A stretch of 64,000 nt of DNA, taken from Flectobacillus major DSM 103 (GTDB lineage Bacteria; Bacteroidota; Bacteroidia; Cytophagales; Spirosomataceae). The notes under the pieces were generated by a model. The model was not told the origin of the DNA. It saw only the letters and a program-made list of their open reading frames with translations, and searched no databases. The translations under genes and the position numbers were made by a program. Positions within the stretch are counted from its first letter, which is position 1; every line of letters starts with the position of its first letter. Of this stretch, positions 8,745 to 63,525 are shown one piece after another. Where the stretch lies: positions 479,001-543,000 of the forward strand of contig NZ_KE386491.1 in assembly GCF_000427405.1 (NCBI RefSeq). The letters are read 5' to 3'.

Positions 8745-8782
8745 TATATTTTACAAAAGTACATGTAAAACGCAACCCCCTA

Positions 8783-11224: not shown

Positions 11225-11238
11225 TTATTTATTTTGCC

Positions 11239-11280
11239 AAAACAAGCCCGTAGGTATTGCACTTACGGGCTTGTTTTTGT
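11239..11280 (+). terminator. Intrinsic terminator after the YfhO gene
   Basis: A perfect 14-bp stem (11239-11252 with 11264-11277), GC-rich at its top (agcccgta), is followed by a T run. It lies 14 bases after the stop codon. Confidence 0.88.
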
Positions 11281-11346
11281 GTCAATATCTCTAAAAAAGG
11301 GTAAAATATCATGTTTTGATACTTTTATCCAAAAAACAATTATTCT

Positions 11347-12270: not shown

Positions 12271-12410
12271 AAATAATGAAATAATGAAGAAATGAAAATA
12301 ATGAAATAATGAAGGAAATGAAAATAATGAAAAGAATGAAGTTTTGGGAAATCCTTCATTTCTTCATCCCTTCATTGTTTTCATCCCTTCACTTCTTCAT
12401 TATTTTCACT
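12263..12410. repeat. ATGAA-type simple-sequence inverted repeat
   Basis: A purine-rich arm built from variants of (a)atgaa(a/g) runs from 12263 to 12341. After a short spacer (gttttgggaaatcc) comes its pyrimidine-rich counterpart, from 12352 to 12410. The arm starts in the last codons of the GH43 gene and ends 11 bases before argH. It shares a 16-mer (12326-12341) and a 15-mer (12387-12401) with the element at 54.4-55.0 kb, in the same order and orientation. Confidence 0.75.
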
Positions 12411-12421
12411 CCTTATATTTA

Positions 12422-13759: not shown

Positions 13760-13789
13760 GGGAGTAAATTTTTGCTTGTAGGTATTAGC

Positions 13790-14863: not shown

Positions 14864-14969
14864 CGTATATTCGACCGTTTTGTGAGTAATACAATTGGGA
14901 AACGCTCTAACCAATCAATATATTTGACGAGGATTGTTTTTGGAGAAATCAATACTAATAATACCTAAA

Positions 14970-15902: not shown

Positions 15903-16054
15903 GTGTATTTGATTTTAACGAATAGCGTTTTTTGTGCCTAATTATCGAGTAATACTGAATATGGGTTGATTTTAGCTCAATTTTATTGGGGCGGTACTAT
16001 CTGAAAAGGCTAATAATAATGATTAATGCTATATCAAATTTAGTATTTATAAGC

Positions 16055-16840: not shown

Positions 16841-16855
16841 AGTAATATAAAATTG

Positions 16856-16887
16856 AAGGCTAACTATTTAGAAAAACAGTTAGCCTT
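16856..16887 (-). terminator. Hairpin between argF' and argB
   Basis: A perfect 10-bp stem (aaggctaact, 16856-16865, with 16878-16887) has a 12-base loop. On the minus strand it is followed by AATTTTATATT. It may end part of the argF' transcripts or protect their 3' ends while some transcription continues into argB. Confidence 0.6.
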
Positions 16888-16897
16888 GTGGAGTATC

Positions 16898-17872
16898 TTA
16901 GAATAAATATGGGCTTTCTGCACGAATCACATTTAGCAGAATTTGTTTGAGTACCACCTGTGCCGACCACACTCGGTTGCCAGCTTGTTGTACTACTACC
17001 GAGTTGGGCGAATCCAAAACAGCATCTTCTACCACAATATTACGTCTTACCGGCAAACAGTGCATAAACTTAGCATTGTTGGTCAGCTTCATTTTGTCCA
17101 TAGTTACCATCCATGAAGGGTCTTGGCTAAGGATTTGGCCATATTCTGTGTATGACGACCAGTTTTTGGCATAAATAAAGTCAGCACCTTCAAAAGCTTC
17201 TTCTTGGTTGTAAGTTACTTTGGCATTGCCCACAAACTCGGGGGCAAGCTCGTAGCCTTTGGGGTGTGTAATCACAAAATCCACATCGGCAGCGTTCATC
17301 CATTCTGCAAACGAGTTGGGTACGGCCTGTGGTAAAGCTTTTACGTGAGGTGCCCAAGTAAGTACAACCTTTGGGCGAGGTTTGGTTTTTAATTCCTCAA
17401 TTGTAATTAAATCGGCCAAAGACTGAAGTGGGTGACGCGTCGACGACTCCAAGCTTACTACAGGTTTGCCAGTATATTTTACAAATTGGTTCAAAACAGT
17501 TTCGGCATAATCTTCCTCACGGTTGGTGAGGGTAGGGAAGCTACGGATACCAACAATATCACAATATTGACCAATAACAGGGGCAGCCTCTTTGATGTGT
17601 TCGGCCTTGTTGCCATTCATGATTGCACCATCCTCAAACTCTAAGCCCCAGCTGTCTTGTCCAACATTCATTACCATCAATTCGAGTCCAAGATTTTGGG
17701 CAGCCCTTTGTGTACTCAATCGTGTTCGTAAACTTGAGTTGAAGAACAATAACCCCATTGTCCTATTTCTTCCTAGATGCTTATCAGCATAAGGTGTTTT
17801 CTTATATAACAAGGCTTCCTTAACAAGGGCCTGAACATCAATAGCATCTTTAACCGAAAGAAAGTTTTTCAT
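16898..17872 (-). CDS. N-acyl-L-ornithine carbamoyltransferase (ArgF'), probably succinylornithine-type
   Basis: This 324-residue enzyme transfers a carbamoyl group to N-acylornithine, giving N-acylcitrulline. The carbamoyl-phosphate motif appears as FFNSSLRTR (43-51), and RHPLQSLADL, TWAPH and MHCLPVRRN match the acylornithine class rather than ordinary ArgF. The residue that sets acyl specificity is Ala90, in NGNKAEH. By recall of the literature, the equivalent is Pro90 in the Bacteroides fragilis succinylornithine enzyme and Glu92 in the Xanthomonas acetylornithine enzyme, and small residues there favour succinylornithine. It is the first gene of the leftward arginine cluster. Confidence 0.93.
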   Translation of the reverse strand: MKNFLSVKDAIDVQALVKEALLYKKTPYADKHLGRNRTMGLLFFNSSLRTRLSTQRAAQNLGLELMVMNVGQDSWGLEFEDGAIMNGNKAEHIKEAAPVIGQYCDIVGIRSFPTLTNREEDYAETVLNQFVKYTGKPVVSLESSTRHPLQSLADLITIEELKTKPRPKVVLTWAPHVKALPQAVPNSFAEWMNAADVDFVITHPKGYELAPEFVGNAKVTYNQEEAFEGADFIYAKNWSSYTEYGQILSQDPSWMVTMDKMKLTNNAKFMHCLPVRRNIVVEDAVLDSPNSVVVQQAGNRVWSAQVVLKQILLNVIRAESPYLF

Positions 17873-17964
17873 TTTCTAAATTATGTGATAGCGGTTCGTT
17901 GCAAATTTTAATGAAAGATTGATTTAAACTACCCTTCGCCCGCTGGCTGTAAGGGTTGAAACTA

Positions 17965-17972
17965 CAAAGTTA
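17965..17972 (-). promoter_or_regulatory. Candidate -7 element of the arginine cluster
   Basis: Minus-strand TAACTTTG matches TAnnTTTG and would give a leader of about 85 bases before argF'. A -33 TTTG at normal spacing is not evident. Confidence 0.38.
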
Positions 17973-18130
17973 TTCCTAATTGTTAAAATCACTATACGAT
18001 TTTTGTAAAAGAATCATAATCTCAAGAAGCTTTTGTGTTGATTTATGGACAATCGCCATAATTTATAGTTTAGTATAGGCTATTGGGGCAATGAATCGAA
18101 ACCTATTTTTGAGAATGGTATATAAAAAAT

Positions 18131-18157
18131 TTGGCGAACTCTACTAGAGCTCGCCAA
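18131..18157 (-). terminator. Intrinsic terminator, minus strand
   Basis: A 12-bp stem with one mismatch (18131-18142 with 18146-18157, arm ttggcgaactct) is followed on the minus strand by ATTTTTTAT. It would end transcription coming from the GNAT gene. Confidence 0.7.
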
Positions 18158-18483
18158 GATTGTATCACTAACACACCAAAATATAGTTTTGCTAATTAGA
18201 ACGATTAAAATACTATTTCACAAAACCTATTTCTACTATGAAAACTAGAATTAATACGCAGGTACAATTCCGAAGTCACAGTATTCTGTAATATTTTGTA
18301 TTAATTACCATTTGTTAATTTTCCTTATGCAAATAGTGGAGAAAATACGGCCTATTACACATTTAAGATACCTACGGAATAAAAGTTTTTTTGGATTGTA
18401 AAAACTGAGATTTTTATTAAAAACTCTATAAAGCAAATACTAGGAGGTTAAAAACAACCAGAAGAGGGTGGGGGTAGTCACTT

Positions 18484-19035
18484 TTAGCGAATAGACAAAT
18501 GCCAGTGTTTTACTTTTAATAATTCTATATGTTGGACTTCGTCGATTAGGCCAAATGTTGAAAAACCACATTTTTTAAGAACTTGTTGTGACGCAATATT
18601 ATCGAGGGGTGTATCGGCCAAAATAGTTTTTAGGTTAATGTCGGTCGATGCCCAATCAATCAGGCATTGAAGAGCCTCAGACGCAAATCCCTGTTGGCGA
18701 AAGGGCATATCTATACAATAACCTACCATAGTAGCTCCGTGCTTGTCGGGTAGTCCCGACAAGCCGATACCTCCAATAGAAAGGTTTTTTTCGACCAGTA
18801 CAATTTCCCAGTTGGTATACCAAAAGAAATCAACAAGGTATTCGTCGGTCATCGGAATCCAATAGTTAGCCAAGGCTTCTTGTGTTTCGGTCTGAAAAAA
18901 ATCTTCAATTTGCCAGTTTGAGGGATTAAGCCCTAGCTTAGCCTCCATGGCATTGCGGCCTTGCTGGTGCCATATCTGTAAGAGGTAATTGTCGAGAGGA
19001 ATAAGTTTGAGACGTTCAGAAGATATATCTATCAT
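18484..19035 (-). CDS. GNAT-family N-acetyltransferase (RimJ/RimL-like)
   Basis: This 183-residue enzyme is predicted to move an acetyl group from acetyl-CoA to an amine. It opens with ISSERLKLIPLD, typical of the RimJ/RimL-like Acetyltransf_3 group. It carries a CoA-binding motif A in the form DMPFRQQGFASEALQ (about residues 108-122) and ends with the N-IASQQVLKKCGF segment. The substrate is unknown; these enzymes modify ribosomal proteins, antibiotics or small metabolites. It is monocistronic, with its own terminator downstream. Confidence 0.88.
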   Translation of the reverse strand: MIDISSERLKLIPLDNYLLQIWHQQGRNAMEAKLGLNPSNWQIEDFFQTETQEALANYWIPMTDEYLVDFFWYTNWEIVLVEKNLSIGGIGLSGLPDKHGATMVGYCIDMPFRQQGFASEALQCLIDWASTDINLKTILADTPLDNIASQQVLKKCGFSTFGLIDEVQHIELLKVKHWHLSIR

Positions 19036-19626
19036 TGCTTGAATTTAGTTATAAAAATGGGCGGAAGAATAGAGCAGCGTTGTTGTACAGACGCCCGCTG
19101 TGGTGTTAAAATGTACTAAAAAATATAACAAAGATACAGATACTTTTGAAAATTTTGGGCAGCATTGGTAGTGGTAATAGTATGATTCAGGGTGTGAGGG
19201 CTTCTCTTAATGTTAGGTTGTAGAACCTTGCATTGTTTTTGTGTCAATTTTATTGTTCAAACAAATACCGTTTGAACAATACCTTGCAAAAGCAGATAGG
19301 AACGCTAAAAATTAGTTGCTAATTTGCCTTTTAGTCCAAAGTTTAAACAAATTTTGAGTACAAAAAAAGTCTATCTGTTATTCATATCTTCTAATTCTTG
19401 TTATTCACCGACGAAATGTTTGGTTTGGTCGAAAATTGGAAAATTCTCACATCAAACCTTGCAACATTTGTGTTCATAAGTAGTCATTTGGCTGATTTGG
19501 AGGCTTTTTCCACTCATCTTAGAAACAAACCATTTGTACTTTTTATATTATTAAAAATAAAATTTATCTGGAATTTTACGTCCAAGTTGAACTAACTCGT
19601 TCAGAAAGTTTTCCAAGAAAATCATC
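19036..19626. other. Divergent intergenic region (591 bp)
   Basis: This region lies between the leftward GNAT gene and the rightward outer-membrane protein gene. It contains the palindrome at 19251-19281 and a repeated accttgca nearby. No exact TAnnTTTG element was found, and a 65-codon frame at 19398-19595 has no protein-like features. Confidence 0.45.
19251..19281. promoter_or_regulatory. Perfect 12-bp inverted repeat, operator or terminator
   Basis: Arms tattgttcaaac (19251-19262) and its exact complement (19270-19281) flank a 7-base loop. There is no T run on either side, so an operator or RNA stability element is more likely than a terminator. It is 345 bases upstream of the outer-membrane protein gene. 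Confidence 0.45.
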
Positions 19627-51336: not shown

Positions 51337-54300
51337 CTATGGGGAGTGATTTTTCAAACGATAAATAAACCAATAAATCAAAGGAATAAAAGAAAGTGAA
51401 ATAAATAAGCCTAGGCACATACCACCAATAACAGAAAGAGCTAAGGGTTTTTGAAGTTCGGCTCCGAGTCCAGATGAGAATAGTACTGGCAATAACCCCA
51501 AAATAGTAGTTAAAAAGGTCATTAACTGTGATTTCAACCTACGTTTTCCCGATAGTTTGATCGCATCAATCAACGACATGCTGTCTTTTGAACGGTTCAT
51601 GGTATCTATTTTCAGGATAGAATCATTATCCAAAATCCCAATTAGCACTATCATGCCAATAGCCGACATAATATTGATACTATTTCCTGCCAAAAACAAT
51701 AAAACCATTGCTCCTGTGAGGCCAAAGGCTATGGTTAGCATTACGATTAAGGGCTGTACCAAAGACTCAAATTGAGCCGCAAGAATGAAATATAGTAATG
51801 CTATTGCTACCAAAATAATAATTCCCAATTCTTTTACAAAACCTATATTTCGGAAATATCCTCCCGTAAAACTTACACTTAAATGAGGGTTTTTTATAAT
51901 CGTTTTTTGAATATCGTTTTGGGCTTTTGGTATTTGTGGGCTGGCCAAATAAAAATCAAAAGGGATAAAGTCTCCATTTTTTCCAGAAAAGAAAGACTTG
52001 TAATCTTGCTGTTTAGTAACATGGATGAGCTCTTTTAGCGGTAAGATTTGTCCTTTATTGCTGAGTACTGTAGCGTTTTGGAGTAGGGTATCGAACGGCT
52101 GAGCAGTACTGCCCAATAAAATGGGAATATACTTCTGTTCGGCTTGTAGATTGCCTAGGTTGTTTTCGTTGAAAATAGTTTTCAATACCTCTACAATTCG
52201 CTCGTAGTCAACATTATAATATAATATTTTTTCGCTTAAAATCTGAATATAAATCCTACTTTGTTGGGCTGGTAAAGACGTGGTAAACCCTTGCTGATGT
52301 AGCCGATGAGATACTTCTGTTATTGTTTGAATATCAGGTACTTCTGCTTTGTTGTTGCTTACAATACGGGCTTGAAGTGGAGCATCGGAGGTATTGAATA
52401 GGGCTTCAAAAACATTTTTTGCTGCCCCAAAAGAGGTAAGTGCATTGGGATATTGGGTTTTTAGAAGGTCTTTTATTTGTTGTTTGGTTTGTTCAAATTC
52501 TTGGTTGGTTTTTACCTTAATACTCAACAACGACTCGTTGAAGTTTTGTTGTAATTCTCGATTTAGTAAAAATTGCTGTTGCCCAACAAAGGCACTAATC
52601 ATCAGATTGTTGTGGGGGTTGGGGGCAAGTTGACTAATAATTTGATTGACTCTACGGTTGTTCTCTTCTATGGTAATAGCCTCGTTCCAATCAATTTTAG
52701 CTTCTAATTCTGTTCTACTAATAATGGGCATTCCACGTTTTTCAAGGTTTTTGAAAACAGGAATAGCAATAATTATCAGGAAGATAAAAAATGCCAACAT
52801 CAGTATCTTTTGCCTAAATACCAAACCTAATAGGCTATCATATACCCGTTCGGATTGACGCATAAGCCATGTGATTTTTTTGGGTACAAAACCTTTCAAC
52901 CGCTCTTCTTTTAGATAAAACAACCGATACAAAACGGGAATCAGTGTATAAGAACATAATAAGGAAATACCTAGAGATAGTGAAACGGCAATGGCTTGGT
53001 CAAAAAATAATGCTCCAGCAATACCACTGATAAAAATGAGAGGTAGAAATACTGCAGAGTTGGTAAGGATAGAAGTAAACAAAGGTATGATTACTTCTTG
53101 TGTTCCGTCAATACAGGCTTTGTCGAGCGGATGTCCTTCTTCACGGTATTGTTCAATATTCTCGATAACAATAATGGCAGAATCTATGATTTCTCCGATA
53201 CCTAATACCAAGCCCGCCAACGAAACGATATTGATAGAAATATGAAATAAGTAAAAACAAAGAAATGTAATAACCAATGAAACAGGAATAACAATACCAA
53301 TAAGAATAGGTGTTTTGAGGTCGTTCATAAAGAAAAATATCATCACGAATGTACATAAACCCCCAAATAAGATATTGCCAATGAGGTTATTAATCGACAA
53401 ATCCAGTAATTCTGTTTGGTCTTGGGTAATACTAAATTCTAATTGAGGGTAATCTTCTTTAAAATGGTTTATTTGTGTATTCAGCTCTTTTTTGAGCTTG
53501 AGTAGTTGGGTATCAGATTGTTTAATAATAGAAAGGCAGATTGCTCTTTTACCATTGAATGTGTAGAGTCCTCGGAGTTTTTGTTCTTGAATACTAACCT
53601 TGGCAAGGTCTTTCAACTGCAAAACCCTTTCACCTTCCTTTTGAATACCTCCAATTTTGAGGTAAATATTTTCTATATCGGTTTGTGTTTTGAGGGTTGA
53701 AGCAAAGCGAATATTATATTGATACTGACCATCTTTGACTAATAAATTTCCTAATTCAATATTGTTTTTTTGTAAAGCCTGTGTCAATATTTGTTCGGTA
53801 ATACCAAGGCTTTGGAGTTTAGGGCGGTCGGGAATAATGATTACTTCGGGCTTTGAAAGCCCTGTCATATCTACCAACGCCACTTCTTTCATTTGTTCAA
53901 TTCTTCTGCGAAGTACATTCTCACAAAATTCGGAAAGAGGTAGAGCCGAGCCATTTTGTTGCCCTTTTTCTGTAACATTGAGGTTGAAAACAGGAATATC
54001 ACCAGCACCTGCTTTGATTACTTTGGGCCGTTCTATTTCACGGGGTAATTGCCCCATGATTCCATCTATTTTCTCATTCGTTTCAATATAGGCTAGGTTG
54101 ATATTAGTACCAAAATCAAAGCGAAGTTTGATAACCGCCAAACCGTCTTGGGTTTCGGCTTCGAGATCTGAAAGATGATTTACTTGTTGTAATTGGTTTC
54201 TGAGGGGTTTTATGAGGTTTTTTTGTAGCTCACGTGCAGAAGCATTTGGATAACTTACTTGTACCGTAATTTCAGGAATAGCAATATCTGGCAGTAACGA

Positions 54301-54396
54301 AACTGGAATTTGATTAAAAGTAACTAACCCCAATGCCATCAATGCAATGGTAGTAATCAGTACAGCTATAGGGCGATGTAATAGGAAACGAACCAT
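51337..54396 (-). CDS. RND-family efflux permease
   Basis: This 1019-residue inner-membrane pump has twelve helices and two large periplasmic loops. It opens with the usual LLHRPIAVLITTIALMALG, and the helix-4 segment reads GEIIDSAIIVIENIEQ. The first Asp of the AcrB-type DD pair is kept and the second is Ser, as in some metal-type RND pumps that have a single Asp. The second half repeats the fold (GLTGAMVLLFLAGNSINIMSAIGMIVLIGILDNDSI). Its adaptor is encoded upstream at 54966-56048, separated by the S23 gene. No TolC-like gene is present. What it exports is unknown; the peptide cluster upstream makes a peptide possible. Confidence 0.92.
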   Translation of the reverse strand: MVRFLLHRPIAVLITTIALMALGLVTFNQIPVSLLPDIAIPEITVQVSYPNASARELQKNLIKPLRNQLQQVNHLSDLEAETQDGLAVIKLRFDFGTNINLAYIETNEKIDGIMGQLPREIERPKVIKAGAGDIPVFNLNVTEKGQQNGSALPLSEFCENVLRRRIEQMKEVALVDMTGLSKPEVIIIPDRPKLQSLGITEQILTQALQKNNIELGNLLVKDGQYQYNIRFASTLKTQTDIENIYLKIGGIQKEGERVLQLKDLAKVSIQEQKLRGLYTFNGKRAICLSIIKQSDTQLLKLKKELNTQINHFKEDYPQLEFSITQDQTELLDLSINNLIGNILFGGLCTFVMIFFFMNDLKTPILIGIVIPVSLVITFLCFYLFHISINIVSLAGLVLGIGEIIDSAIIVIENIEQYREEGHPLDKACIDGTQEVIIPLFTSILTNSAVFLPLIFISGIAGALFFDQAIAVSLSLGISLLCSYTLIPVLYRLFYLKEERLKGFVPKKITWLMRQSERVYDSLLGLVFRQKILMLAFFIFLIIIAIPVFKNLEKRGMPIISRTELEAKIDWNEAITIEENNRRVNQIISQLAPNPHNNLMISAFVGQQQFLLNRELQQNFNESLLSIKVKTNQEFEQTKQQIKDLLKTQYPNALTSFGAAKNVFEALFNTSDAPLQARIVSNNKAEVPDIQTITEVSHRLHQQGFTTSLPAQQSRIYIQILSEKILYYNVDYERIVEVLKTIFNENNLGNLQAEQKYIPILLGSTAQPFDTLLQNATVLSNKGQILPLKELIHVTKQQDYKSFFSGKNGDFIPFDFYLASPQIPKAQNDIQKTIIKNPHLSVSFTGGYFRNIGFVKELGIIILVAIALLYFILAAQFESLVQPLIVMLTIAFGLTGAMVLLFLAGNSINIMSAIGMIVLIGILDNDSILKIDTMNRSKDSMSLIDAIKLSGKRRLKSQLMTFLTTILGLLPVLFSSGLGAELQKPLALSVIGGMCLGLFISLSFIPLIYWFIYRLKNHSP

Positions 54397-54401
54397 TTTT
54401 T

Positions 54402-54985
54402 GAATGAAGTAATGAAAAATGAAAGTAATGAAGTAATGAAAAATGAAAAGAATGAAGGAATGAAATAAGTGACAAAATGGTTTTCTGTTTTTCTTCTACT
54501 TCTTCATCTTTTTACCTCTTCTATTTTTTCTTTTCCTTCATTCCTTCCATTTCTTCTTTCTTTTCATTTCTAAGATTTTCTTTAGTTGTTTTCAAAATAG
54601 ACTGAATAATTCTGATAATTTCTTGGCAATCATTGAGTAGAGAATTGGCTAAAGGTGGTTTAATGTATCCAGTTTCTTCCAAAAGTCGTATCCAGTATTT
54701 AGTTTCTTTAGCCTCCTTATAGCTTATTTGGCATTTAGCGATGAAGTCAGCTTTTGATTGGCCACCATCGGCTTCTTCGATATTTGCTCCTATGCTCATA
54801 CCACTTTTTATTATCTGTCTTGACAAAATAAATTCTTTCTTTTCATTCGTCAAAAACTGTCCTAATTTCATGATCCTAACAGCAAATCGAAAACTCTTTT
54901 CAGCAATTACATTTTCCTTCATAAGATTACAATTTTACTACTCATTCTTTCATTCCCTCATTTCTTCACTTCTTCATTCCTTCAT
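54402..54985. mobile_element. Simple-repeat-bounded element carrying an S23 (four-helix-bundle) gene
   Basis: A purine-rich ATGAA-type arm (54402-54475) and a pyrimidine-rich arm (54934-54985) are inverted relative to each other and enclose one gene, the S23 protein. The right arm runs into the last codons of the adaptor gene, and the left arm ends 5 bases before the pump's start codon. A 16-mer (54442-54457) and a 15-mer (54964-54978) match the repeat at 12263-12410. Mobility is inferred: no recombinase and no clear target duplication are seen. Confidence 0.5.
54521..54922 (-). CDS. Four-helix-bundle (S23/intervening-sequence) protein
   Basis: This 133-residue protein belongs to the S23 family, first known from intervening sequences in 23S rRNA genes and related to the Avd protein of diversity-generating retroelements. 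The core (1-115) shows FRFAVRIMKLGQFL, ILSRQIIKSGMSIGANIEEADGGQSKADFIAK and ETKYWIRLLEETGYI. The last 18 or so residues (RNEKKEEMEGMKEKKK) are encoded by the flanking simple repeat and are probably not functional. It interrupts an adaptor-pump pair. The family forms pentameric helical barrels in known structures; its role outside rRNA and retroelements is unknown. Confidence 0.87.
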   Translation of the reverse strand: MKENVIAEKSFRFAVRIMKLGQFLTNEKKEFILSRQIIKSGMSIGANIEEADGGQSKADFIAKCQISYKEAKETKYWIRLLEETGYIKPPLANSLLNDCQEIIRIIQSILKTTKENLRNEKKEEMEGMKEKKK

Positions 54986-56048
54986 CTATAATAACCTTTG
55001 CATCATGTCCCAAATTCAAATTACCCTCAATAATCACTTTTTGTCCAGCCTTTAAACCCTCCGAAATAGACACTTCCTGACTATTTTCATGAGCAACTGT
55101 TACATAATTCCATTTGGCAAGACCATTTTCATAGACAAAAACCACTTTTTTCCCCGACCGTTCTACTACAGCTTCTTTGGGAATAACGATTTGCGGTGGC
55201 AGGTTTTTCTCAATAATCACTTGGGCATTCATACCGTCCAATAAATATTGGTCAGGATTTTGAATTCTAACTTTGATAAAAACCAAACCTTGCTCATTGA
55301 CGACGGGGTTAATCTCAGCTACCTTACCCATGTAATTCCTTTCAGAATAGGCCAATGGCTTTACATTAGCCATTTGTCCTAAGCTAACAACACTCAATTC
55401 AGATTCTAGCACTGATACTTCTACAACCATACCTTCACGGCTGAGAATAGTACAAAAAGGCTCGTTGGTAGGTGAGGGGTTATGGGCTTTGGTTTTGAGA
55501 TTGGCAATTACGCCAGTATATGGAGCTTTCAGATAGGTATTTTCTAGCTTCAATTGGGCATCTTTTACACTCGTAAGGGCTTTGGTAAAACCACTTTTGG
55601 CTTTGATGTTTTCCATAATACGATTAGATACCGATGTAGTATCACGGTCTTTACCACCAAACTCTAATAATAGTTTGTTCAATTCAACCTTTGTGTCCTG
55701 TAAATGGTCTTGGGCTTGTTGTAGGGCAATACGTTGTTGTTCGTTGTCCAAAATTGCCAAGATTTGCCCTTCTTTTACAGAAGCACTATTCGTGACCATG
55801 ATTTTCGCAATAATCCCTGTTGTTTTAAAATTGATTTTTGCCTGAGTAAGAGCCGTCACCTTACCTGTAGCCATTATTTGTAAGGGAAAAGATTTACGTT
55901 GGCTTTCTGCCAATTTAACAGTTACAACATTTTCGGTAATAGGAGAAACGCTTGCTTTTGCTTCATCTTCCTTTTGTTGTTGGCTATGGCTGGGTTGGCA
56001 TGCTGTTAGCGTAAATAGTAGATAAATTATGGGTATTATTTTATTCAT
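54966..56048 (-). CDS. RND efflux periplasmic adaptor (membrane fusion protein)
   Basis: This 360-residue periplasmic lipoprotein (lipobox LTAC, Cys17) connects an RND pump to an outer-membrane channel. It has a split lipoyl-like domain (IMVTNSASVKEGQILAILDN and LKAPYTGVIANLKTKAHNP), a short helical hairpin (about 110-165) and the beta-barrel and membrane-proximal domains. Its last residues (EGMKK) and stop codon are written in the flanking simple repeat, so the original C-terminus may have been altered. It lies 60 bases after the DUF6734 gene stop and may share its transcript. Confidence 0.9.
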   Translation of the reverse strand: MNKIIPIIYLLFTLTACQPSHSQQQKEDEAKASVSPITENVVTVKLAESQRKSFPLQIMATGKVTALTQAKINFKTTGIIAKIMVTNSASVKEGQILAILDNEQQRIALQQAQDHLQDTKVELNKLLLEFGGKDRDTTSVSNRIMENIKAKSGFTKALTSVKDAQLKLENTYLKAPYTGVIANLKTKAHNPSPTNEPFCTILSREGMVVEVSVLESELSVVSLGQMANVKPLAYSERNYMGKVAEINPVVNEQGLVFIKVRIQNPDQYLLDGMNAQVIIEKNLPPQIVIPKEAVVERSGKKVVFVYENGLAKWNYVTVAHENSQEVSISEGLKAGQKVIIEGNLNLGHDAKVIIDEGMKK

Positions 56049-56108
56049 AGGAGTAAAGATGGCAAAACTATTGGTTGGAGTAATAGAGATAAATATACAG
56101 ATATTTTT

Positions 56109-57659
56109 TTATTGGCATTCTAAAATACCTTGATAAAGTAAAAACCGAATTTTGGCTAGGATATTGGTTTTGAGCTCGTTCAAAGTAATCGTTTGGTTGA
56201 ATAGATAAATTTCCTGTGCTACATTTTCAAGAATTTCTTGAATCGTTAGTGTATAGCTCTCAATTTGTTGCAAAGTATCAATAATCATAATTGTAAAAGT
56301 GTCTGATAATTGCTCTTTTACGGTCATAGATACAGGATACCCAAATAAAACAACTTGAAAATAGGAAGGCTCTTGCCCTAAATTTAAGGTATAATCAATG
56401 TCACTATCTTGTCCTGTAAATTCATTAATTTCTGCCCATTTCCATTCACTTTCAATGAAGGTAACGTACTCTCCGAAAGTTACAGAACTCAATAAAATTT
56501 CTTTATCCGTTTTTGACAATCTCTCATTGACTTTCAAAGATTGGCGTTTTCTATACTGTACATAATCATCGACACAAGGTAAACCTTGAATAAAGTGGTA
56601 TTTTTCTAATTCGTATTGGAAAGCATCTCTCAGAATGGTATTCTGAGGATTCTCTGGATATATGTTGATTTGTTCGGTTAAGGACTCAAGAGAATTTTGT
56701 AAATTGAGGTTTAGTCCTATTTGTTGACTTATCAAATTGGTTCTATAAAAGAATACCTCTAATGTTTGTGCTTTATTTTCAATAAACATCGAGACTTTTG
56801 TTGCCTCCAACTCATTGGAGACATTCACTACTCTTTCGTATAATTCAGGGCTTTCAATGTAGAGCCTTTGAGCCATTTTTTCGCAAATAGTTTGATTTTT
56901 CTTGTAATTCATTACATGGATATAATCACAAAAATTAGGTAAATCCCAAAAACGGTCTAATTGGTAGTTGTGTGGGTATCCTATTTGTTGGCTCATTTGA
57001 TAACAAATCGAGATTTGTGATGTATCTGCTAATTTTTTAAACCAAAATTGTTCCAAAAAAATATTAAAACAAAACGGGTCTAAGTGATTCAAATAGTCTT
57101 TGTTTTTTTCTAAAAATAATGTTACATCTAGGTAAAGTCGTTTGAAAAAATCAGTATCAGAACCACCCATAATACCCGCATTAACGGCTGCTATCTTTTC
57201 TTGGTTATCTTGTTTGAGATAATTGGGAACTTGAATGCAAGTATTCATTACTTCCTTAACCCCCTGTAAATAATAAGGATGATTGTATTCATAATTTTGA
57301 GCAACGAGTTGAGCATTTAAAAACTCCTTATCAAAAGGCTTGAAAAGATAAGCATCACCGTCTATATGTATGAAAGGTTCATCTTGTATAGTATATGAGT
57401 ACAATTTACGCAATACCCATAATGAAGGCAGTAAAGGGTTAAAGTTTTCTTGAGCCAAAGAAATAGAAGAATAAGGCAACTGTAACTTATCAATCAGAAT
57501 CTCTTTTCCTAAGTTATTAGTAATCAATTCAATATTGGGATAATATTTTTGAATTGAAACGGCACTTAGTGCCCAACTCATAAAATGGAATTTAGAGGAA
57601 AACCAACCTGCATCTAATTTTGTGAGGTTGTTGACCCAGCAGGTTTGTAGTATTTTCAT
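56109..57659 (-). CDS. DUF6734 family protein with glycosyltransferase-like N-terminal part and extra C-terminal region
   Basis: This 516-residue protein resembles DUF6734 in its first 300 or so residues: MKILQTCWVNN, WFSSKFHFMSWALSAV, and EPFIHIDGDAYLFKPFD. The DGD at 100-102 looks like the metal-binding DxD of GT-A glycosyltransferases, and MNTCIQVPNY..AAVNAGIMGGSD resembles an acceptor/sugar site. The C-terminal 200 residues are helical and acidic; I do not recognise them. I use the ATG at 57659, 4 bases after the thioredoxin-like gene's stop; an upstream in-frame start would overlap that gene. Modification of the small peptide of this cluster is a possible role (inferred). Confidence 0.75.
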   Translation of the reverse strand: MKILQTCWVNNLTKLDAGWFSSKFHFMSWALSAVSIQKYYPNIELITNNLGKEILIDKLQLPYSSISLAQENFNPLLPSLWVLRKLYSYTIQDEPFIHIDGDAYLFKPFDKEFLNAQLVAQNYEYNHPYYLQGVKEVMNTCIQVPNYLKQDNQEKIAAVNAGIMGGSDTDFFKRLYLDVTLFLEKNKDYLNHLDPFCFNIFLEQFWFKKLADTSQISICYQMSQQIGYPHNYQLDRFWDLPNFCDYIHVMNYKKNQTICEKMAQRLYIESPELYERVVNVSNELEATKVSMFIENKAQTLEVFFYRTNLISQQIGLNLNLQNSLESLTEQINIYPENPQNTILRDAFQYELEKYHFIQGLPCVDDYVQYRKRQSLKVNERLSKTDKEILLSSVTFGEYVTFIESEWKWAEINEFTGQDSDIDYTLNLGQEPSYFQVVLFGYPVSMTVKEQLSDTFTIMIIDTLQQIESYTLTIQEILENVAQEIYLFNQTITLNELKTNILAKIRFLLYQGILECQ

Positions 57660-57663
57660 GAGA

Positions 57664-58176
57664 TTATTTTTTAATAAAATTATCAACGTAATTGAAAACA
57701 CTATCAGCATTTGAAAATGTAACCTCTTTAATATCAACTATTTTATTTTCTCGACATAAATAAATTTTAGGATGTCCAATACCGATTAATTTTTTGTGAA
57801 CACCAATTCTTATTGAATCAAAAATAAGATTTGGACTTGTTAATATTTTTTTGGTAAAAAAGATATTAAGTTTCTTTTTAGACTCGCCACTTATGATAAA
57901 GGACATATTCGGATTTTCGCTATTTTTCTCAATAAATTTTATTGTGAAATCTAAACACGCTCCGCAGCCATCCAATTCTGTTATTAAATATAATTTCTTT
58001 TTTAACACAGGGGAATTAGTGTAATGGTAGTTTAAGGATTCCAACCCTGTTTGTATCACTTCAAAGTTATCAGTTTGCACACTACAATTTTCAGTACCAC
58101 AAAAGAAAATTAATAATATAACATAATTATTAATTTTCTTGAATAGTGAATAGCGTAAAATATGAATGTTCGTCAT
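57664..58176 (-). CDS. Thioredoxin-like protein with CxxC motif, membrane- or lipid-anchored
   Basis: This 170-residue protein has a hydrophobic N-terminal segment (about 15-26, ending IFFCGTENC) and then a thioredoxin-type beta-alpha unit, KLYLITELDGCGACLDFTIKFI, with the redox pair Cys71-Cys74. A short strand-rich remainder follows, with a cis-Pro candidate in GIGHPKIYLCRENK. It is shorter and more divergent than ordinary TlpA/ResA proteins. Its start codon overlaps the end of the DUF4221 gene by 47 bases in another frame, so the two are translationally coupled. With a four-cysteine secreted peptide encoded upstream, disulfide formation or reduction is a natural guess. Confidence 0.7.
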   Translation of the reverse strand: MTNIHILRYSLFKKINNYVILLIFFCGTENCSVQTDNFEVIQTGLESLNYHYTNSPVLKKKLYLITELDGCGACLDFTIKFIEKNSENPNMSFIISGESKKKLNIFFTKKILTSPNLIFDSIRIGVHKKLIGIGHPKIYLCRENKIVDIKEVTFSNADSVFNYVDNFIKK

Positions 58177-59299
58177 CTTTTTTATAGTGTTTAATGTAAA
58201 TACCTTTTTCGGTTACAAACAGATTGCTGGATTGGTAGTTTTCATCGAGCTTGGTTTCCCCTACTTTTTCAAAATTTTCGTTTAGAATAATAACAGAATA
58301 GATAAACCATACTTTATCATCATATTCACTTTTTTTGTTTTTGTTTGGTGTTCCTGCAAACCTTAAATACATTTTGCGGTATTTGTCATAGTAGATGCTT
58401 GAGTAATGAGGTTGAGATGTTACATAGTTAAACTCGTCGTTTACATCGTGCTGAACAGCCTTACTTTTTTTATACCATGGTATTTCGCCAAAAAAACAAC
58501 TATTAGCCTGATATGATTTTGTGTTTTTTGTGTTCATATCTACTTCATAAATCGATTCATCTACATTGTATGATATTACACATTTGCCTTTTTCTGTATT
58601 ATAAGTCTGGCTTAATTCGGTTTGGATGCCAGTCAAAGCATATCCTTCATCGTACGTTTTTAGCCACTTTTCGGGCAATGTTGTCAAAAAATCAGCTTTA
58701 CCACTTAACATATTCAATACCAAAGACGCATTTGCTTTGTTATAATACCTTCTGAGGGTAGGGTCGTCGAATGGGCTTGCTCCTGCGTAAAGGAAGTTAT
58801 CTTTAACCATCATCTGATTAGCATCATTTCCATAGCTTATCAAGCCATTACCGAGCCTCTCTTTTCCTGTATCATTGAACAGGTACGAGTACTTTCGTTG
58901 TAGTTTTCCATTGGCATTAATAAGAGATACTGAATATTGAAAAGTAGCAAGAACAAAAATAGAATCGGGCGATTTTACAAAAAAGTTGCTCGCGATACCG
59001 ACACCATTGGGGCCTTCTTTTTCAAGTTTTATTCTTTTTATCAAATCTCCCTTGATAGAATATAGGTCAATAGAGTTGTTTAGTTTATTTAAAGCGTAAA
59101 TGGATTCTTCTTTTTTGTCGGTGACAAAGTAGAATATTTTACAATCATTAGGAGAACTTAGAGAATCATGTTTAATCACTATAGAATTGTCATGAGCTAC
59201 TAGAGAGTAGGTATCAATACAGGTTTTTTTTTCATTATTACAGCTACTTTCCCAAAGTAGGATAAGTACAAAAAGTAGATAGTAGGATTTCTTAAACAT
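58130..59299 (-). CDS. DUF4221-type lipoprotein (beta-propeller-like)
   Basis: This 389-residue surface or periplasmic lipoprotein (lipobox ESSC, Cys20) is built of repeated beta units. It shows the segment SIDLYSIKGDLIKRIKLEKEGPNGVG, typical of DUF4221/BF3164-like six-bladed propellers, then DSIFVLATFQYSVSLINANGKLQRKY, and ends with GIYIKHYKKDDEHSYFTLF. In Bacteroidota such lipoproteins occur next to small NVEALA-type peptides, as here. Binding of the peptide or of its target is a reasonable but untested idea. A 30-bp hairpin lies between it and the peptide gene. Confidence 0.78.
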   Translation of the reverse strand: MFKKSYYLLFVLILLWESSCNNEKKTCIDTYSLVAHDNSIVIKHDSLSSPNDCKIFYFVTDKKEESIYALNKLNNSIDLYSIKGDLIKRIKLEKEGPNGVGIASNFFVKSPDSIFVLATFQYSVSLINANGKLQRKYSYLFNDTGKERLGNGLISYGNDANQMMVKDNFLYAGASPFDDPTLRRYYNKANASLVLNMLSGKADFLTTLPEKWLKTYDEGYALTGIQTELSQTYNTEKGKCVISYNVDESIYEVDMNTKNTKSYQANSCFFGEIPWYKKSKAVQHDVNDEFNYVTSQPHYSSIYYDKYRKMYLRFAGTPNKNKKSEYDDKVWFIYSVIILNENFEKVGETKLDENYQSSNLFVTEKGIYIKHYKKDDEHSYFTLFTIQEN

Positions 59300-59407
59300 T
59301 TTATATACCGTTAATTTTATAAAAAGCGTGATAATTAGTATAGATATTATTTACATTAAGTTATGATTGAACAAAAAGATAGTTTCTAATTAATTTTCGA
59401 TTTAAGA

Positions 59408-59477
59408 AAACTATGATTGAAGTTGAGGATTTAATAGCTGGTCTCAACTATTAAACCCTCAATTTCAATCATAGTTT
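59408..59477 (-). terminator. Very long hairpin downstream of the peptide gene
   Basis: Arms of 30 bases (59408-59437 with 59448-59477) pair at 28 positions and leave a 10-base loop; on the minus strand a short T run (gttttctt) follows. It lies about 100 bases after the peptide stop and 109 bases before the DUF4221 start. It can act as a terminator or 3' stabiliser that makes the peptide message far more abundant than the rest of the cluster. Confidence 0.68.
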
Positions 59478-59579
59478 CCCCAAAATAAGTAATAAGTAAA
59501 CTACATTCAGTTTATAACAATACTATAGGACTTATTAATTTTTAATTTGTTGAGGGGAACAATATTTTTTGAATATTCG

Positions 59580-59795
59580 CTAACTACAACTACTTTTTTG
59601 TGAGCAATTACTTATAGATGAGGGCGTACATTGATAATTATTCCAACTACCATCTTTATAACATTTAGATAAAATATATCCGCCACCACCACCAGTTGCT
59701 TGCACCTCATTAAAAATGCTATCTATACCAACAGTCCCAGCTGTCAATGATGCCATTAATAGAGCCTTTTTGGCAAATTTTTTGTTAATTTTCAT
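59580..59795 (-). CDS. NVEALA-like small Cys-rich secreted peptide
   Basis: This 71-residue precursor has a basic start (MKINKKFAKK), a hydrophobic stretch (residues 11-28) and the segment IFNEVQAT (27-34), which resembles the NVEALA leader end of small Bacteroidota peptides. Then come five glycines and a mature region of about 32 residues with four cysteines (45, 56, 64, 70), rich in Ser, Asn and aromatic residues. Cleavage after the NEVQA segment would release a peptide able to form two disulfides. I start at the ATG at 59795, because a 36-residue upstream extension in frame has no leader character. The function (signal, toxin or pilus-like) is unknown. Confidence 0.7.
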   Translation of the reverse strand: MKINKKFAKKALLMASLTAGTVGIDSIFNEVQATGGGGGYILSKCYKDGSWNNYQCTPSSISNCSQKSSCS

Positions 59796-59940
59796 TTTCT
59801 TAAATAGTTTAAACAATAGAACATCGTTGCTACCCTCCAATACAATTATCTGCGTCCAGTGTATTAAATTCGGCGTTTTTGAATAACGTTTTTCATGATT
59901 CAAATTTTTGTATTAAAATCCACAAAATCAAGGCTGTTGA

Positions 59941-59979
59941 TTGGACTTAATTGGACATTATTGGACTTAATAGGACACG
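59941..59979 (-). promoter_or_regulatory. Four 10-bp-phased direct repeats upstream of the peptide gene
   Basis: On the minus strand the units read GTCCTATTAA, GTCCAATAAT, GTCCAATTAA and GTCCAATCAA; GTCC recurs exactly every 10 bases (plus-strand GGAC at 59943, 59953, 59963 and 59973). One helical turn per unit suggests cooperative binding along one DNA face. They lie 145 bases upstream of the peptide start and just after a small helix-turn-helix gene. Confidence 0.6.
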
Positions 59980-59981
59980 AT

Positions 59982-60158
59982 TTAGTCGCCATGATATTTT
60001 TGGATTATCAAAGATGCTAATTTGGGTTTTAGTAGTGAACGAGGAGTAATCGCAATGCCTTGAGTTTTGATAAATCGTGTAAGGGTTTTGGTACTAATAC
60101 CAAGCGATGCAGCAACTTGCTGGCGAGTCATGGGTTTTAATTGTGTAGGAGTTGTCAT
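59982..60158 (-). CDS. Small helix-turn-helix protein
   Basis: This 58-residue protein has MTRQQVAASLGISTKTLTRFIKTQGI (about 10-35), a compact helix-turn-helix of the excisionase/MerR-like or Fis-like kind, followed by a basic tail with SLLKPKLASLIIQKYHGD. The start at 60158 avoids a hydrophobic extension in frame upstream. It sits immediately upstream of the phased repeats and the peptide gene on the same strand, so it is a candidate for their regulator. It is small, with no sensor domain. Confidence 0.7.
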   Translation of the reverse strand: MTTPTQLKPMTRQQVAASLGISTKTLTRFIKTQGIAITPRSLLKPKLASLIIQKYHGD

Positions 60159-60357
60159 GTTTAAAAAGGCTAAGAATGGGCAAATTGACAAGGCTAATAT
60201 TTGAAAATTTAATGCAATTTTGGAAAAAAGAAATAGAGCTTTATCTCCCCAACTACTTTATTTATTGAACTAATAGACAAATCAATCCGCCAGCTAACAG
60301 CAGTTTGTTGTCTTAATTATATCAAATATAATTTATTTAATAAATTTTATCAAAAAT

Positions 60358-63300
60358 ATGCAAAATAAATCTTATGCTATTCTTATTATTTTTGTTGTTC
60401 TCACTATAGTTGGCATTGCACTTATTCCCAAATTATCTATTCAGCTCAATCCTTCTAAAAACTCGGGGAGTCTAACTGTATCTTATTTTTGGGGCAATGT
60501 TTCGCCAGAAGTACTTGAACACCAGGTTTCTGCAAAGCTGGAGGGAGCATTTAGTACATTACAAGGAATTAAAAAGTTGAGTTCAGTGTCGGGTTATGGC
60601 AATGGATACATTACTATCGAAATGGATAAATCGGCTAATCTTGACCAATTGCGTTTTGAAGTTGCAACACTCATAAGACAACTGTACCCTCAACTCCCCA
60701 AAGAGGTAAGCTATCCCGTTATTAGCCTCAATTCGCCCGACCAAGAAATGCAACAAAAACCCTTGATTTCTTTACAGCTTAATGGACAAGCACGTTTGAG
60801 TGATTTGAAGGTATATGCCGAAGAGCAGTTGAAACCTCAATTGGCCCAAATCGAAGGAATCTACACTGTAAATGTCTATGGTGGAAATCGTCAAGAATGG
60901 GTTTTGATGTATGATAGAAAGCAATTGGAGAGTTTGCAAATAACTGAAAATGAAATTGTTAAGGCTATATCTGTACAATATCAACAAAGTAGCATAGGCT
61001 TGGCTCGTGATGTTCAGGGCCAACAAATGAATGTTATATTAAGTCCAAAATCGCAGGATATTTTCACCAAAAAATCAGCCGAAGAAGTTAGGGAAGATTT
61101 AGGGAAAATAGCCTTGCCTTTAAGAGAAAAAGGCGATTTGCAGAGAATAATTCACCTTTCAGATATATTGAAAGTAAAGCGTAGCGAACAGCCTATCGAA
61201 GAGTTTTATAGAATAAATGGTAGAAATGCCGTTACACTGGTTATACAAGCCGACATAGGGGCCAACCAACTGGCTTTGTCCAAGGCTATTCGATTAAAAT
61301 TAGCAGAAATTTCAAAAACACTTCCGCCAACCTACCAAACCAATATTGAATATGATGCAACTGAATATATCAAAGAAAACTTAGATAAAATCTGGGTACA
61401 GTCGGGCTTGGCTATCTTGATTTTATTGGCTTTTGTGTGGCTTTCTACCCGTAGCTGGCGATATACCATAGTGATTTTATGGAGTTTAGTGATTAATTTG
61501 GCTTTATCGTTTATTGTCTTTTATTTCCTCAAAATCGAAATACATCTGTATTCTCTGGCTGCTATTACAACGTCTTTGGGTATTTTGATTGATAATACAA
61601 TTGTTATGATTGACCATTATCGCCGATACAGAAACCTAAGTGTTTTTATGGCCTTATTGGGTGCTACCTTAACTACTATTGCTGGGTTGACAATTATTTG
61701 GTTTTTGCCCGAAGAGGCTAAATTAGACTTGTTAGACTTTGCCATAGTGATGATGGTGGTATTGGGAATATCCTTGGTGATTGCCTTATTTTTTGTTCCA
61801 GCATTGATAGAAAGAATAGGTTTTTTTGCTGAAAATCAGCGGATTATGAATGGTGCTAGTCGGCGGAGAATTGTTGGGGGTAGTCGAGTGTATACAAGGG
61901 TGGTACTTTTTCTTATGCGTTTTCGCAGAACATCCTTTGTGTTGATATTGCTTGCCTTTGGCTTGCCTGTATTTATGTTGCCCAATAAGATAGACGACTC
62001 AAAGCCTTGGGCAAGGTATTATAATGCTAGCTTAGGAAATGAATATTACCAAGAGAATATCCAACCAACGATTAATAAGGTATTGGGAGGGAGTTTGCGG
62101 TTGTTTGTGAACTATGTTTACGAAAAATCTTATTATACAAAGAATGAACGTACATGTCTATATGTCAATGCTGGATTGCCCAATCAGGCTACTATCGAAC
62201 AAATGAATGATTTGTATTTACGAATAGAAAGTTATTTAGGCCAATTTAAGGAAATAGACCGATTTATTACTCGGATTTATAATGGACAGAGTGGAAGTAT
62301 GGCTATTTATTTTAAACCAGAATATGAAAGTAGTTCGTTTCCTTATGTCCTAAAAAATAAAATGATTGTACTTTCAACCGAAATGAGCGGTATCCATTGG
62401 GATATTTATGGCGTAGGGCAAGGGTTTAGTCAGCATTTGGACGAAAATAGTACGCCTACTTTTAATGTAATGATGCACGGGTATAATTATAATGAATTGG
62501 AACGCCAAGCCAATATATTGAAGAAGCACTTGGAAATACATCCTAGAATTCAGGAGGTAAATATCAATAGGAATATGGATTTTTGGAATAATAAAAGCCT
62601 ATACGAATATGTATTAGAAACCGACCCCAAGTATTTAGCCCTGTACGGACGAACCAATGCCGAAGTGTACGATTACTTACAACGTCAAAATGTACGCTCA
62701 CGCCCAGATATTTATCAATTTATGTATGGCGAATACGAACAGGTTAAAGTTGTGCCAGACGATAGTAAAAACTTTGACGTGTGGTCATTAATGAATCAGT
62801 CGGTAAAAATGGATAGTACTACTGTAAAACTGGCTAATTTTGCCAAGTCTACCAAGCAAAAAATCAGTTCTGAAATTCATAAAGAGAATCAGGAATATCT
62901 TAGAATGGTAAGTTTTGAGTATTTTGGGAGTCAAAATTTTGGAGATAAATTTTTAGATAAAACCTTAGCTGATTTCAAAACAGTACTTCCGTTGGGTTAT
63001 ACCGCCAAAAAAATAGGCTATGATTGGTACAGCTATGAGGCCAAAAAGCAATATTGGTTGATAGGCTTGGTCATAGTGCTAATTTATATCATTTGTGCCA
63101 TTATTTTTGAGTCGTTGTTACAGCCTTTGGCATTAATCATGCTAATACCAATTTCGTTTATTGGTGTTTTTCTAACATTTTATTGGTTCGACTTTAACTT
63201 TGACCAAGGGGGCTATGCTTCTTTTATCTTACTGAGTGGCAATGTAGTGTGTGCCGCTATTTTTATTATTGCAGAGTTCAATAATTTACGAAAGTTATAC

Positions 63301-63525
63301 CCTTCTACAAAGCCGTTTAAGTTGTATATCAAAGCCTATAATCACAAAATTATTCCTATTTTCCTTACGGTACTTTCAACGGTAGTAGGCTTAATTCCAT
63401 TTTTGATTTATGGACAAAATGAAGTTTTTTGGTTTGCTCTTGGCATAGGCACAATAGGAGGGTTAATGATGTCATTAATAGGGATTATTTTGTATTTGCC
63501 TTTGTTCTTAAAAATAGATAAATAA
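60358..63525 (+). CDS. RND-family permease without a nearby adaptor
   Basis: This 1055-residue inner-membrane transporter has the duplicated RND architecture. It starts directly with helix 1 (SYAILIIFVVLTIVGIALIPKLSIQLNPS). The first porter region includes VSAKLEGAFSTLQGIKKLSSVSGYG, and helix 4 reads LGILIDNTIVMIDHYRR, where the second Asp of the AcrB DD pair is Asn. The C-terminal half ends with LIGIILYLPLFLKID. Unlike typical pumps it has no adaptor or outer-membrane factor gene beside it. It is divergent from the small HTH gene and the peptide cluster, so a shared regulatory region is possible. The substrate is unknown. Confidence 0.9.
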   Translation: MQNKSYAILIIFVVLTIVGIALIPKLSIQLNPSKNSGSLTVSYFWGNVSPEVLEHQVSAKLEGAFSTLQGIKKLSSVSGYGNGYITIEMDKSANLDQLRFEVATLIRQLYPQLPKEVSYPVISLNSPDQEMQQKPLISLQLNGQARLSDLKVYAEEQLKPQLAQIEGIYTVNVYGGNRQEWVLMYDRKQLESLQITENEIVKAISVQYQQSSIGLARDVQGQQMNVILSPKSQDIFTKKSAEEVREDLGKIALPLREKGDLQRIIHLSDILKVKRSEQPIEEFYRINGRNAVTLVIQADIGANQLALSKAIRLKLAEISKTLPPTYQTNIEYDATEYIKENLDKIWVQSGLAILILLAFVWLSTRSWRYTIVILWSLVINLALSFIVFYFLKIEIHLYSLAAITTSLGILIDNTIVMIDHYRRYRNLSVFMALLGATLTTIAGLTIIWFLPEEAKLDLLDFAIVMMVVLGISLVIALFFVPALIERIGFFAENQRIMNGASRRRIVGGSRVYTRVVLFLMRFRRTSFVLILLAFGLPVFMLPNKIDDSKPWARYYNASLGNEYYQENIQPTINKVLGGSLRLFVNYVYEKSYYTKNERTCLYVNAGLPNQATIEQMNDLYLRIESYLGQFKEIDRFITRIYNGQSGSMAIYFKPEYESSSFPYVLKNKMIVLSTEMSGIHWDIYGVGQGFSQHLDENSTPTFNVMMHGYNYNELERQANILKKHLEIHPRIQEVNINRNMDFWNNKSLYEYVLETDPKYLALYGRTNAEVYDYLQRQNVRSRPDIYQFMYGEYEQVKVVPDDSKNFDVWSLMNQSVKMDSTTVKLANFAKSTKQKISSEIHKENQEYLRMVSFEYFGSQNFGDKFLDKTLADFKTVLPLGYTAKKIGYDWYSYEAKKQYWLIGLVIVLIYIICAIIFESLLQPLALIMLIPISFIGVFLTFYWFDFNFDQGGYASFILLSGNVVCAAIFIIAEFNNLRKLYPSTKPFKLYIKAYNHKIIPIFLTVLSTVVGLIPFLIYGQNEVFWFALGIGTIGGLMMSLIGIILYLPLFLKIDK

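Follow-up and report, generated by a model that had tools for sequence, protein, structure and literature searches.

A cysteine-rich peptide, a DUF4221 lipoprotein and a two-subunit RND pump joined in one locus of Flectobacillus major suggest an undescribed route for peptide secretion

We performed a detailed inspection of a 64,000-nt stretch of the genome of Flectobacillus major DSM 103 (contig NZ_KE386491.1, positions 479,001 to 543,000; hereafter the window), which contains a row of five leftward genes encoding a helix-turn-helix (HTH) protein, a small cysteine-rich precursor peptide, a DUF4221 lipoprotein, a thioredoxin (Trx)-like protein and a DUF6734 protein. All five genes are present, with gene calls and translations matching those of an initial annotation, which had set the limits of the unit at positions 56109 and 60158. 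These limits were not borne out: the genes sit between RND1 and MFP-RND2, i.e. they are bracketed by the genes of a resistance-nodulation-division (RND) pump, the constant part of the locus, which the initial annotation had overlooked. The five genes constitute the exchangeable cargo of this larger locus. Loci of this kind, which are found in many Bacteroidota, combine small cysteine-rich peptides, predicted to be secreted, with a lipoprotein partner and an RND pump of two subunits. The features of this locus (window coordinates) are as follows:

60358-63525, plus strand: RND1, a divergent RND permease subunit and the anchor gene of the locus (ACR_tran, E 2.3e-96)
59982-60158, minus strand: 58-aa HTH protein, starting with ATG; probable local regulator
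59940-59979, no strand assigned: 10-bp direct repeats immediately after the HTH gene; a possible operator
59580-59795, minus strand: precursor peptide of 71 aa that starts with ATG and contains four Cys and a TGGGGG tract
59697-59795 and 59583-59696, minus strand: leader and core (38 aa, four Cys) of the peptide, respectively, divided at a predicted cleavage site
59401-59484, minus strand: stem-loop between the peptide and lipoprotein genes, with two 40-nt arms and a 4-nt loop
58130-59299, minus strand: DUF4221 lipoprotein, 389 aa (PF13970, E 3.9e-34); proposed cognate partner of the peptide
57664-58176, minus strand: Trx-fold CxxC envelope protein (Cys71-Cys74)
56109-57659, minus strand: DUF6734 protein, 516 aa from ATG (PF20508, E 1.5e-87), built of an N-terminal DUF6734 domain with a DxD motif and a C-terminal region of about 230 aa
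54966-56048, minus strand: MFP, the periplasmic adaptor of the RND pump (RND_mfp, E 4.4e-50, above the cut-off)
51337-54396, minus strand: RND2, the second RND permease subunit (ACR_tran, E 6.1e-169)

The DUF4221 and Trx-like genes overlap by 47 nt, and the DUF6734 gene begins 4 nt past the stop codon of the latter. The order of the genes is identical in Arcicella aurantiaca (L028, L068), which belongs to another genus of the same family (RND1 / HTH-peptide-DUF4221-Trx-like-DUF6734-MFP-RND2), and there the DUF4221 and Trx-like genes overlap by 44 nt. Since this species keeps the genes, their order and the overlap, the five-gene set is not due to chance; the loss of gene order in related genomes, which the initial annotation had named as grounds for rejecting its proposal, was not observed. 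The locus of Pseudarcicella hirudinis has the arrangement RND1 / LuxR-type HTH-peptide-DUF4221-Trx-like-MFP-RND2 and lacks DUF6734. A LuxR-type HTH gene occupies the corresponding place in several other loci (GerE confirmed in L029). DUF6734 and the HTH type found in the window are variable parts, and the RND pump is the constant part.

Comparison of the window with the Arcicella locus revealed that the proteins of the pump are closely related (amino acid identity of 83% for RND1, 90% for RND2 and 81% for MFP), whereas the peptide core, the DUF4221 lipoprotein and the Trx-like protein are only 22%, 22% and 26% identical, respectively. Identity reaches 67% for the peptide leader, 64% for the HTH protein and 66% for the DUF6734 protein (55% over residues 1-285 and 79% over the remainder). 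At the DNA level, the gap between the HTH and peptide genes is 77% identical, and the peptide core 43%. The DUF4221 lipoprotein of Arcicella is 49% identical to that of Pseudarcicella and 23% identical to that of the window; the pump genes display the reverse relationship, those of Arcicella being 52-64% identical to their Pseudarcicella counterparts and 81-90% to those of the window. The pump is conserved while the core, DUF4221 and Trx-like sequences have diverged, and the latter may therefore be regarded as one exchangeable cargo within a conserved chassis; it seems that a cargo cassette has been exchanged in a fixed chassis. Such joint behaviour of the three components is what a peptide and its cognate immunity or receptor protein would show.

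The distribution of the genes was analyzed in 150 genomes of the same family, including the source genome (match threshold for RND1: E 1e-100). RND1 was found in 14 genomes, DUF4221 in 12 and the Trx-like protein in 6. All but one of the 12 DUF4221 genomes also contain RND1 (Fisher p 3e-13, ignoring kinship), the exception being G067, which is 71% complete. Ten of the 15 DUF4221 hits are placed within 10 kb of RND1 on its contig, and the other five come from assemblies of 80 to 890 contigs, in which they lie on contigs that lack RND1. The source genome has a single DUF4221 match, that of the window. With the thresholds applied, none of the four same-genus genomes among the 150 matched RND1, DUF4221, the Trx-like protein, the peptide or DUF6734. 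Contig ends truncate the loci of G112, G118 and G137, and those of G120 and G127 are split across two contigs.

For a wider survey, a contig scan with an RND1 alignment was used, which gave 285 relatives, and the best 80 of the 285 loci were kept; the controls were 24 DUF6734 loci from the same family as the window (mean length 15.5 kb vs 18.8 kb for the RND1 loci). The loci fetched originate from Cytophagales, Flavobacteriia and Bacteroidales, including one Bacteroidaceae metagenome-assembled genome from an animal rectum (L094). A lipoprotein of the DUF4221 or DUF5128 type (6-bladed beta-propeller) is encoded in 52 of the 80 RND1 loci and in 36 of the 50 loci of at least 20 kb. When a third, putative propeller class, PROPb, is counted as well, these values rise to 65/80 and 49/50, respectively, vs 0/24 in the controls; single-member Pfam checks confirmed the DUF4221 and DUF5128 classes and left PROPb unconfirmed, and the class hidden Markov models (HMMs) and queries were derived from the loci under test, which biases the counts in their favour. 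Trx-like relatives are present in 13 of the RND1 loci, DUF1573 proteins in 6, an outer membrane factor (OMF) in 23 and a cluster of S26 signal peptidases in 12 (one member each of the OMF and S26 classes was confirmed). RND2 was labelled, by best phmmer query, in 52/80 loci, and MFP in 49/80 (3/24 controls). Thermoflexibacter ruber (L069) carries three DUF4221 genes, each with an upstream peptide open reading frame (ORF) and an adjoining Trx-like gene.

The precursor peptide of the window has a hydrophobic, Sec-like leader of 33 aa ending in EVQA, which agrees with the earlier claim that the peptide is secreted. Its Pfam matches are all below the curated cut-off. The proposal that it is NVEALA-like was rejected: the peptide does not match PF14055 at E 1 or 0.01, and none of nine Bacteroidales RND1 genomes (excluding that of L088) matches this family at E 0.001. 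One of 24 aligned peptides from these loci does match it (E 1.6e-4), and this is not the peptide of the window. The 24 members of the alignment had been chosen by hand among the candidates; conservation in at least 90% of the sequences is limited to the start Met, the leader Ala and two Cys. A single-sequence search with the peptide gave a match at E 0.1 in 14 of the 150 genomes, its own included; related loci account for the hits in G052, G005 and G120, and the remaining ones, weak and mostly containing stops, were taken as chance matches.

The association of such peptides with propeller lipoproteins, which had been noted in the initial annotation, is evident from the gene neighbourhoods. A small Cys-bearing ORF with a Sec leader lies upstream of 45 of 97 lipoprotein genes of the three classes, vs 11 of 326 other genes of the same loci (after contig-edge genes, 7 lipoprotein and 39 other, had been dropped); by class, this ORF precedes 23/39 genes of the DUF5128 type and 21/32 of the DUF4221 type. 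The number of Cys residues after residue 22 is even in 40 of 47 ORFs of the automatic set (p 5e-7) vs 9 of 19 control ORFs, as is expected of disulfide-bonded peptides. This parity, together with the presence of a CxxC protein with a predicted Trx fold, makes it likely that the peptide is disulfide-bonded, as had been proposed.

The assignment of the lipoprotein to DUF4221 is secure (119.1 bits vs a gathering score of 23.4). The Trx-like protein does not belong to any Pfam family; its AlphaFold2 model (mean pLDDT 86) gives the Trx fold anticipated by its earlier label, with ResA (1st9) as the best Foldseek match (E 1.1e-4, TM 0.44-0.52). The CxxC motif is invariant in all 12 aligned sequences (of the 13 sequences found, two from L104 were left out of the alignment). 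According to the model, the protein resembles thiol oxidoreductases of the ResA/TlpA type. No match to the Trx-like gene was found in the plasmid collection searched.

The hairpin downstream of the peptide gene (59401-59484) has arms that are 85% complementary and a folding energy of -50.3 kcal/mol (z -11.7). It was considered as a repeat element, and this was rejected, as the genome contains a single full copy. The peptide-lipoprotein gap of all five other loci that were folded also contains a stem-loop, of unrelated sequence; measured against mononucleotide shuffles, z ranges from -2.9 to -5.4 over the six loci, window included. Stems of at least 12 pairs are present in 25/36 peptide-lipoprotein gaps vs 46/315 other same-strand gaps (29/228 when length-matched), where gaps of at least 40 nt were taken, nine shorter ones were dropped and a small number of ORFs appear to be spurious. 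It is probable that the hairpin acts as a partial terminator or stabiliser, setting the expression of the peptide above that of the lipoprotein. If it is a partial terminator, the small ORF would be a transcribed gene.

On the other side of the peptide gene, the direct repeats (59940-59979) are phased, and the matching stretch of Arcicella, judged by eye, keeps a shorter version of them. The HTH protein has Pfam matches only below the curated cut-off. A promoter scan found 24 sites vs 21.5 expected.

The solved sequence closest to RND1 is MdtB. Both a permease and an adaptor are encoded in the locus, as in a tripartite HAE-1 RND pump, and the function currently annotated for RND pump genes of this kind is the efflux of drugs or metals.

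The DUF6734 protein (294.1 bits for PF20508 vs a gathering score of 27) had been described as having the look of a DxD-bearing glycosyltransferase. The motif itself is present, as D100-x-D102, and is invariant in 25 aligned sequences (25 of the 35 available, window included). No known glycosyltransferase was matched by sequence or by fold. An AlphaFold2 model built from 5 sequences has a mean pLDDT of 58, with residues 1-115 and 222-297 below 50; it gave no Foldseek match at E 0.001, and hhalign with one GT8 protein was negative. Within the C-terminal region, the model contains strands (residues 436-451; block pLDDT 53-55, up to 74) followed by helices (454-509; 74-92), and hhalign of this part with one PqqD-like protein gave E 0.087 with a probability below 1%. 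That the C-terminal region is the better conserved part would agree with its possible recognition of the conserved leader.

The suggestion that DUF6734 modifies peptides gained support from its gene neighbourhoods. Genes typical of ribosomally synthesized and post-translationally modified peptides (RiPPs), i.e. C39-ABC, LanB, LanC, radical SAM, VKOR-C39-Trx and PqqD, are present in 16/25 DUF6734 loci outside the RND loci vs 2/80 RND1 loci; the queries were taken from seven of the tested loci, which biases the count in favour of the link, and representatives were confirmed by Pfam. The source genome itself contains two more copies of DUF6734 in a RiPP cluster (L033, C6:2630000-2649999, locus 8112-19496), which also holds LanC, LanB, an unassigned 615-aa protein and a double-glycine (GG)-leader peptide with a nine-glycine core tract; a second LanC-like candidate in L033 matches no Pfam family. 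The locus of Cecembia lonarensis (L125, 2078-6734 onward) is a bridge between the RND-type and the RiPP-type locus, as it encodes DUF6734, a GG-leader Cys-rich peptide, a DUF4221 lipoprotein, a C39 peptidase and MFP-RND2-RND1. These neighbourhoods indicate that DUF6734 is an optional, RiPP-linked enzyme, with sugar transfer as the leading guess for its putative activity. The DUF6734 genes of L059, L060 and L064 have radical SAM, C39-ABC and glycosyltransferase-like neighbours (in L060, Core-2/I-Branching and DUF6625 were confirmed), which suggests glycosylated RiPPs.

Based on these data, we propose, with about an even chance of being right, that the locus serves peptide secretion and comprises a disulfide-bonded peptide, its cognate lipoprotein and a dedicated RND pump. 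We infer the individual steps, i.e. Sec export, cleavage, disulfide formation, RND transport, the partner role of the lipoprotein and the modification chemistry, from the sequences. The 71-aa precursor would leave the cytoplasm by Sec, with the leader cut at EVQA|TGG, and the Trx-like lipoprotein would pair its four cysteines in the envelope. The mature 38-aa peptide would then be expelled by a heteromeric pump of RND1, RND2 and MFP, with a TolC-type OMF encoded elsewhere or shared. The peptide would have its cognate partner in the DUF4221 lipoprotein, which would most likely act as an immunity protein or a receptor. In the minority of loci in which it is present, DUF6734 would modify the precursor in the cytoplasm, and its C-terminal region may grip the precursor. 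The hairpin would allow the peptide to be made in excess, and the HTH gene would regulate the locus. A broader proposal, which we rate somewhat below an even chance, is that of a pan-Bacteroidota pathway in which heteromeric RND pumps secrete Sec-delivered, disulfide-bonded ribosomal peptides, with swapped cassettes, their own propeller lipoproteins and optional RiPP enzymes.

Several observations weigh against the secretion proposal. At the proton-relay Asp-Asp/Lys positions, which we take from AcrB, RND1 has Asp-Asn and lacks the Lys in 79 sequences (residues 412-413 and 962-965; the Asp-Asn was partly selected by the scan pattern used to collect the loci), and RND2 has Asp-Asn or Asp-Ser in 47/48 sequences, with Asn replacing Lys in 47/48 (residues 405-406 and 922-929). 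None of the genes of 51337-63525 encodes an OMF, and the only OMF homolog found in the genome with one query sits in an ABC-type cluster, for which reason this unlinked candidate was rejected. Not every locus has the expected partners: neither a peptide nor a propeller was seen in the RND1 locus of G009 (contig of 9.1 kb), G011 has propellers and no visible peptide, and 15/80 loci lack any propeller-type gene (14 of them are shorter than 20 kb; L116 has 23.7 kb). An upstream peptide ORF precedes only 1/26 PROPb genes, so this class is not tied to peptides, and the PROPb member tested matches no Pfam family. The favourable bias of the class HMMs belongs here as well. As for the modifying enzyme, DUF6734 is present in just 4/80 RND1 loci, its search against PDB sequences gave no match at E 1 and thus no known glycosyltransferase, and none of 25 members has a Pfam PqqD match.

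Three other explanations of the locus were weighed. DUF6734, the peptide and the thiol-disulfide protein might by themselves form the system, a glycocin-like or other RiPP cluster next to an ordinary RND pump. This appears quite unlikely, even though DUF6734 is accompanied in other loci by GG-leader peptides, C39-ABC exporters, LanB/LanC, radical SAM and VKOR-Trx proteins, since many loci without DUF6734 still pair RND1 with propeller-type genes and peptide ORFs, and the set of the window is adjoined by RND genes, not by a C39 exporter, with a leader that is not of the GG type. A sequence pattern could also link DUF6734 to the peptides: [ST]G directly follows the leader Ala in an aligned peptide at five of the six DUF6734-bearing RND loci (the window, L068, L070, L074, L125 and L035) vs 0/19 other peptides. 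It serves as a lead only, because a second L070 peptide lacks [ST]G, the L125 peptide, being of the GG-leader type, is outside the alignment, and several of the species are related. It is also unlikely that we are dealing with a stress or detoxification locus, in which a small-molecule pump is accompanied by a Cys peptide kept in the cell as an envelope sensor or pump modulator. The constancy of the pump genes against varying cargo would suit such a role, as would the loci of G009 and G011, in which RND1 has no visible peptide, and small proteins that bind RND pumps, e.g. AcrZ, exist. However, a modulator should co-vary with its pump, and here the core has diverged far beyond RND1 and RND2; several different peptides may occur within one locus, and 12/80 loci carry a signal peptidase cluster.

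Peptide signalling is a possible, if rather doubtful, third explanation. The exported peptide would be sensed by the propeller lipoprotein, which would report to the LuxR/HTH regulator, with no killing involved. The regulators found within the locus in several cases and the lipoprotein genes with peptide ORFs of their own speak for it, and co-diversification is expected equally of a peptide and its receptor. Against it, no transmembrane relay linking the lipoprotein to the regulator turned up, though no search was aimed at one, and sequence alone cannot separate killing from signalling here.

Literature searches retrieved no papers for NVEALA, DUF6734 or DUF4221, and no description of this locus was among the matches listed. 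Several known systems share parts of it. MdtABC is a heteromeric RND pump with two permeases; the pump of the window likewise combines two different permeases with one adaptor, and MdtB is nearest to RND1 among solved sequences, but this pump is genetically linked to peptides and lipoproteins and its proton-relay residues are altered. Glycocins of the sublancin type bring together a peptide, a glycosyltransferase and a thiol-disulfide oxidoreductase. A similar group is present here, in which, unlike in glycocins, glycosyl transfer by DUF6734 is putative and the adjoining genes encode RND proteins, not a peptidase-ABC exporter. In NVEALA peptides, the leader ends in an A-x-A-like site and the tail bears Cys; the peptide of the window shares this build but does not match PF14055.

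The nearest described peptide system found is that of the bacteroidetocins, which, in the retrieved part of their description (PMC6671954), have a GG leader of 15-16 aa and a peptidase-ABC exporter. The likeness consists of a small four-Cys peptide of Bacteroidota, an adjoining thiol oxidoreductase gene and a dedicated exporter; the locus analyzed here differs in its 33-aa Sec-type leader, RND pump and DUF4221 lipoprotein, and has neither the GG leader nor the peptidase-ABC exporter that characterize bacteroidetocins and class II bacteriocins. Table rows of PMC10434189 suggest a like locus in Bacteroides thetaiotaomicron (BT0662-BT0669), where a 6-bladed beta-propeller (BT0664), a signal peptidase I (BT0667) and an RND adaptor (BT0669) are encoded close together. 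In a term search, a survey of Bacteroidales RiPPs (PMC10352776) yielded none of RND, lipoprotein, DUF, beta-propeller and HlyD.

The locus suggests a way of secreting small peptides that has not been described so far. If this is true, genes now annotated as those of drug efflux pumps, DUF4221 or 6-bladed propeller lipoproteins would, with overlooked small ORFs, constitute one peptide-secretion system, and a very diverse family of cysteine-rich peptides would be gained. The lipoproteins of the DUF4221 type would acquire a function, and DUF6734 would become a candidate enzyme of peptide modification.

The window also contains, between the MFP and RND2 genes, a gene for a 23S rRNA-intervening-sequence protein (54521-54922, minus strand; PF05635, E 2e-27). 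ORFs resembling it by motif were noted in the RND loci L075 and L106. This gene is probably a hitchhiker.

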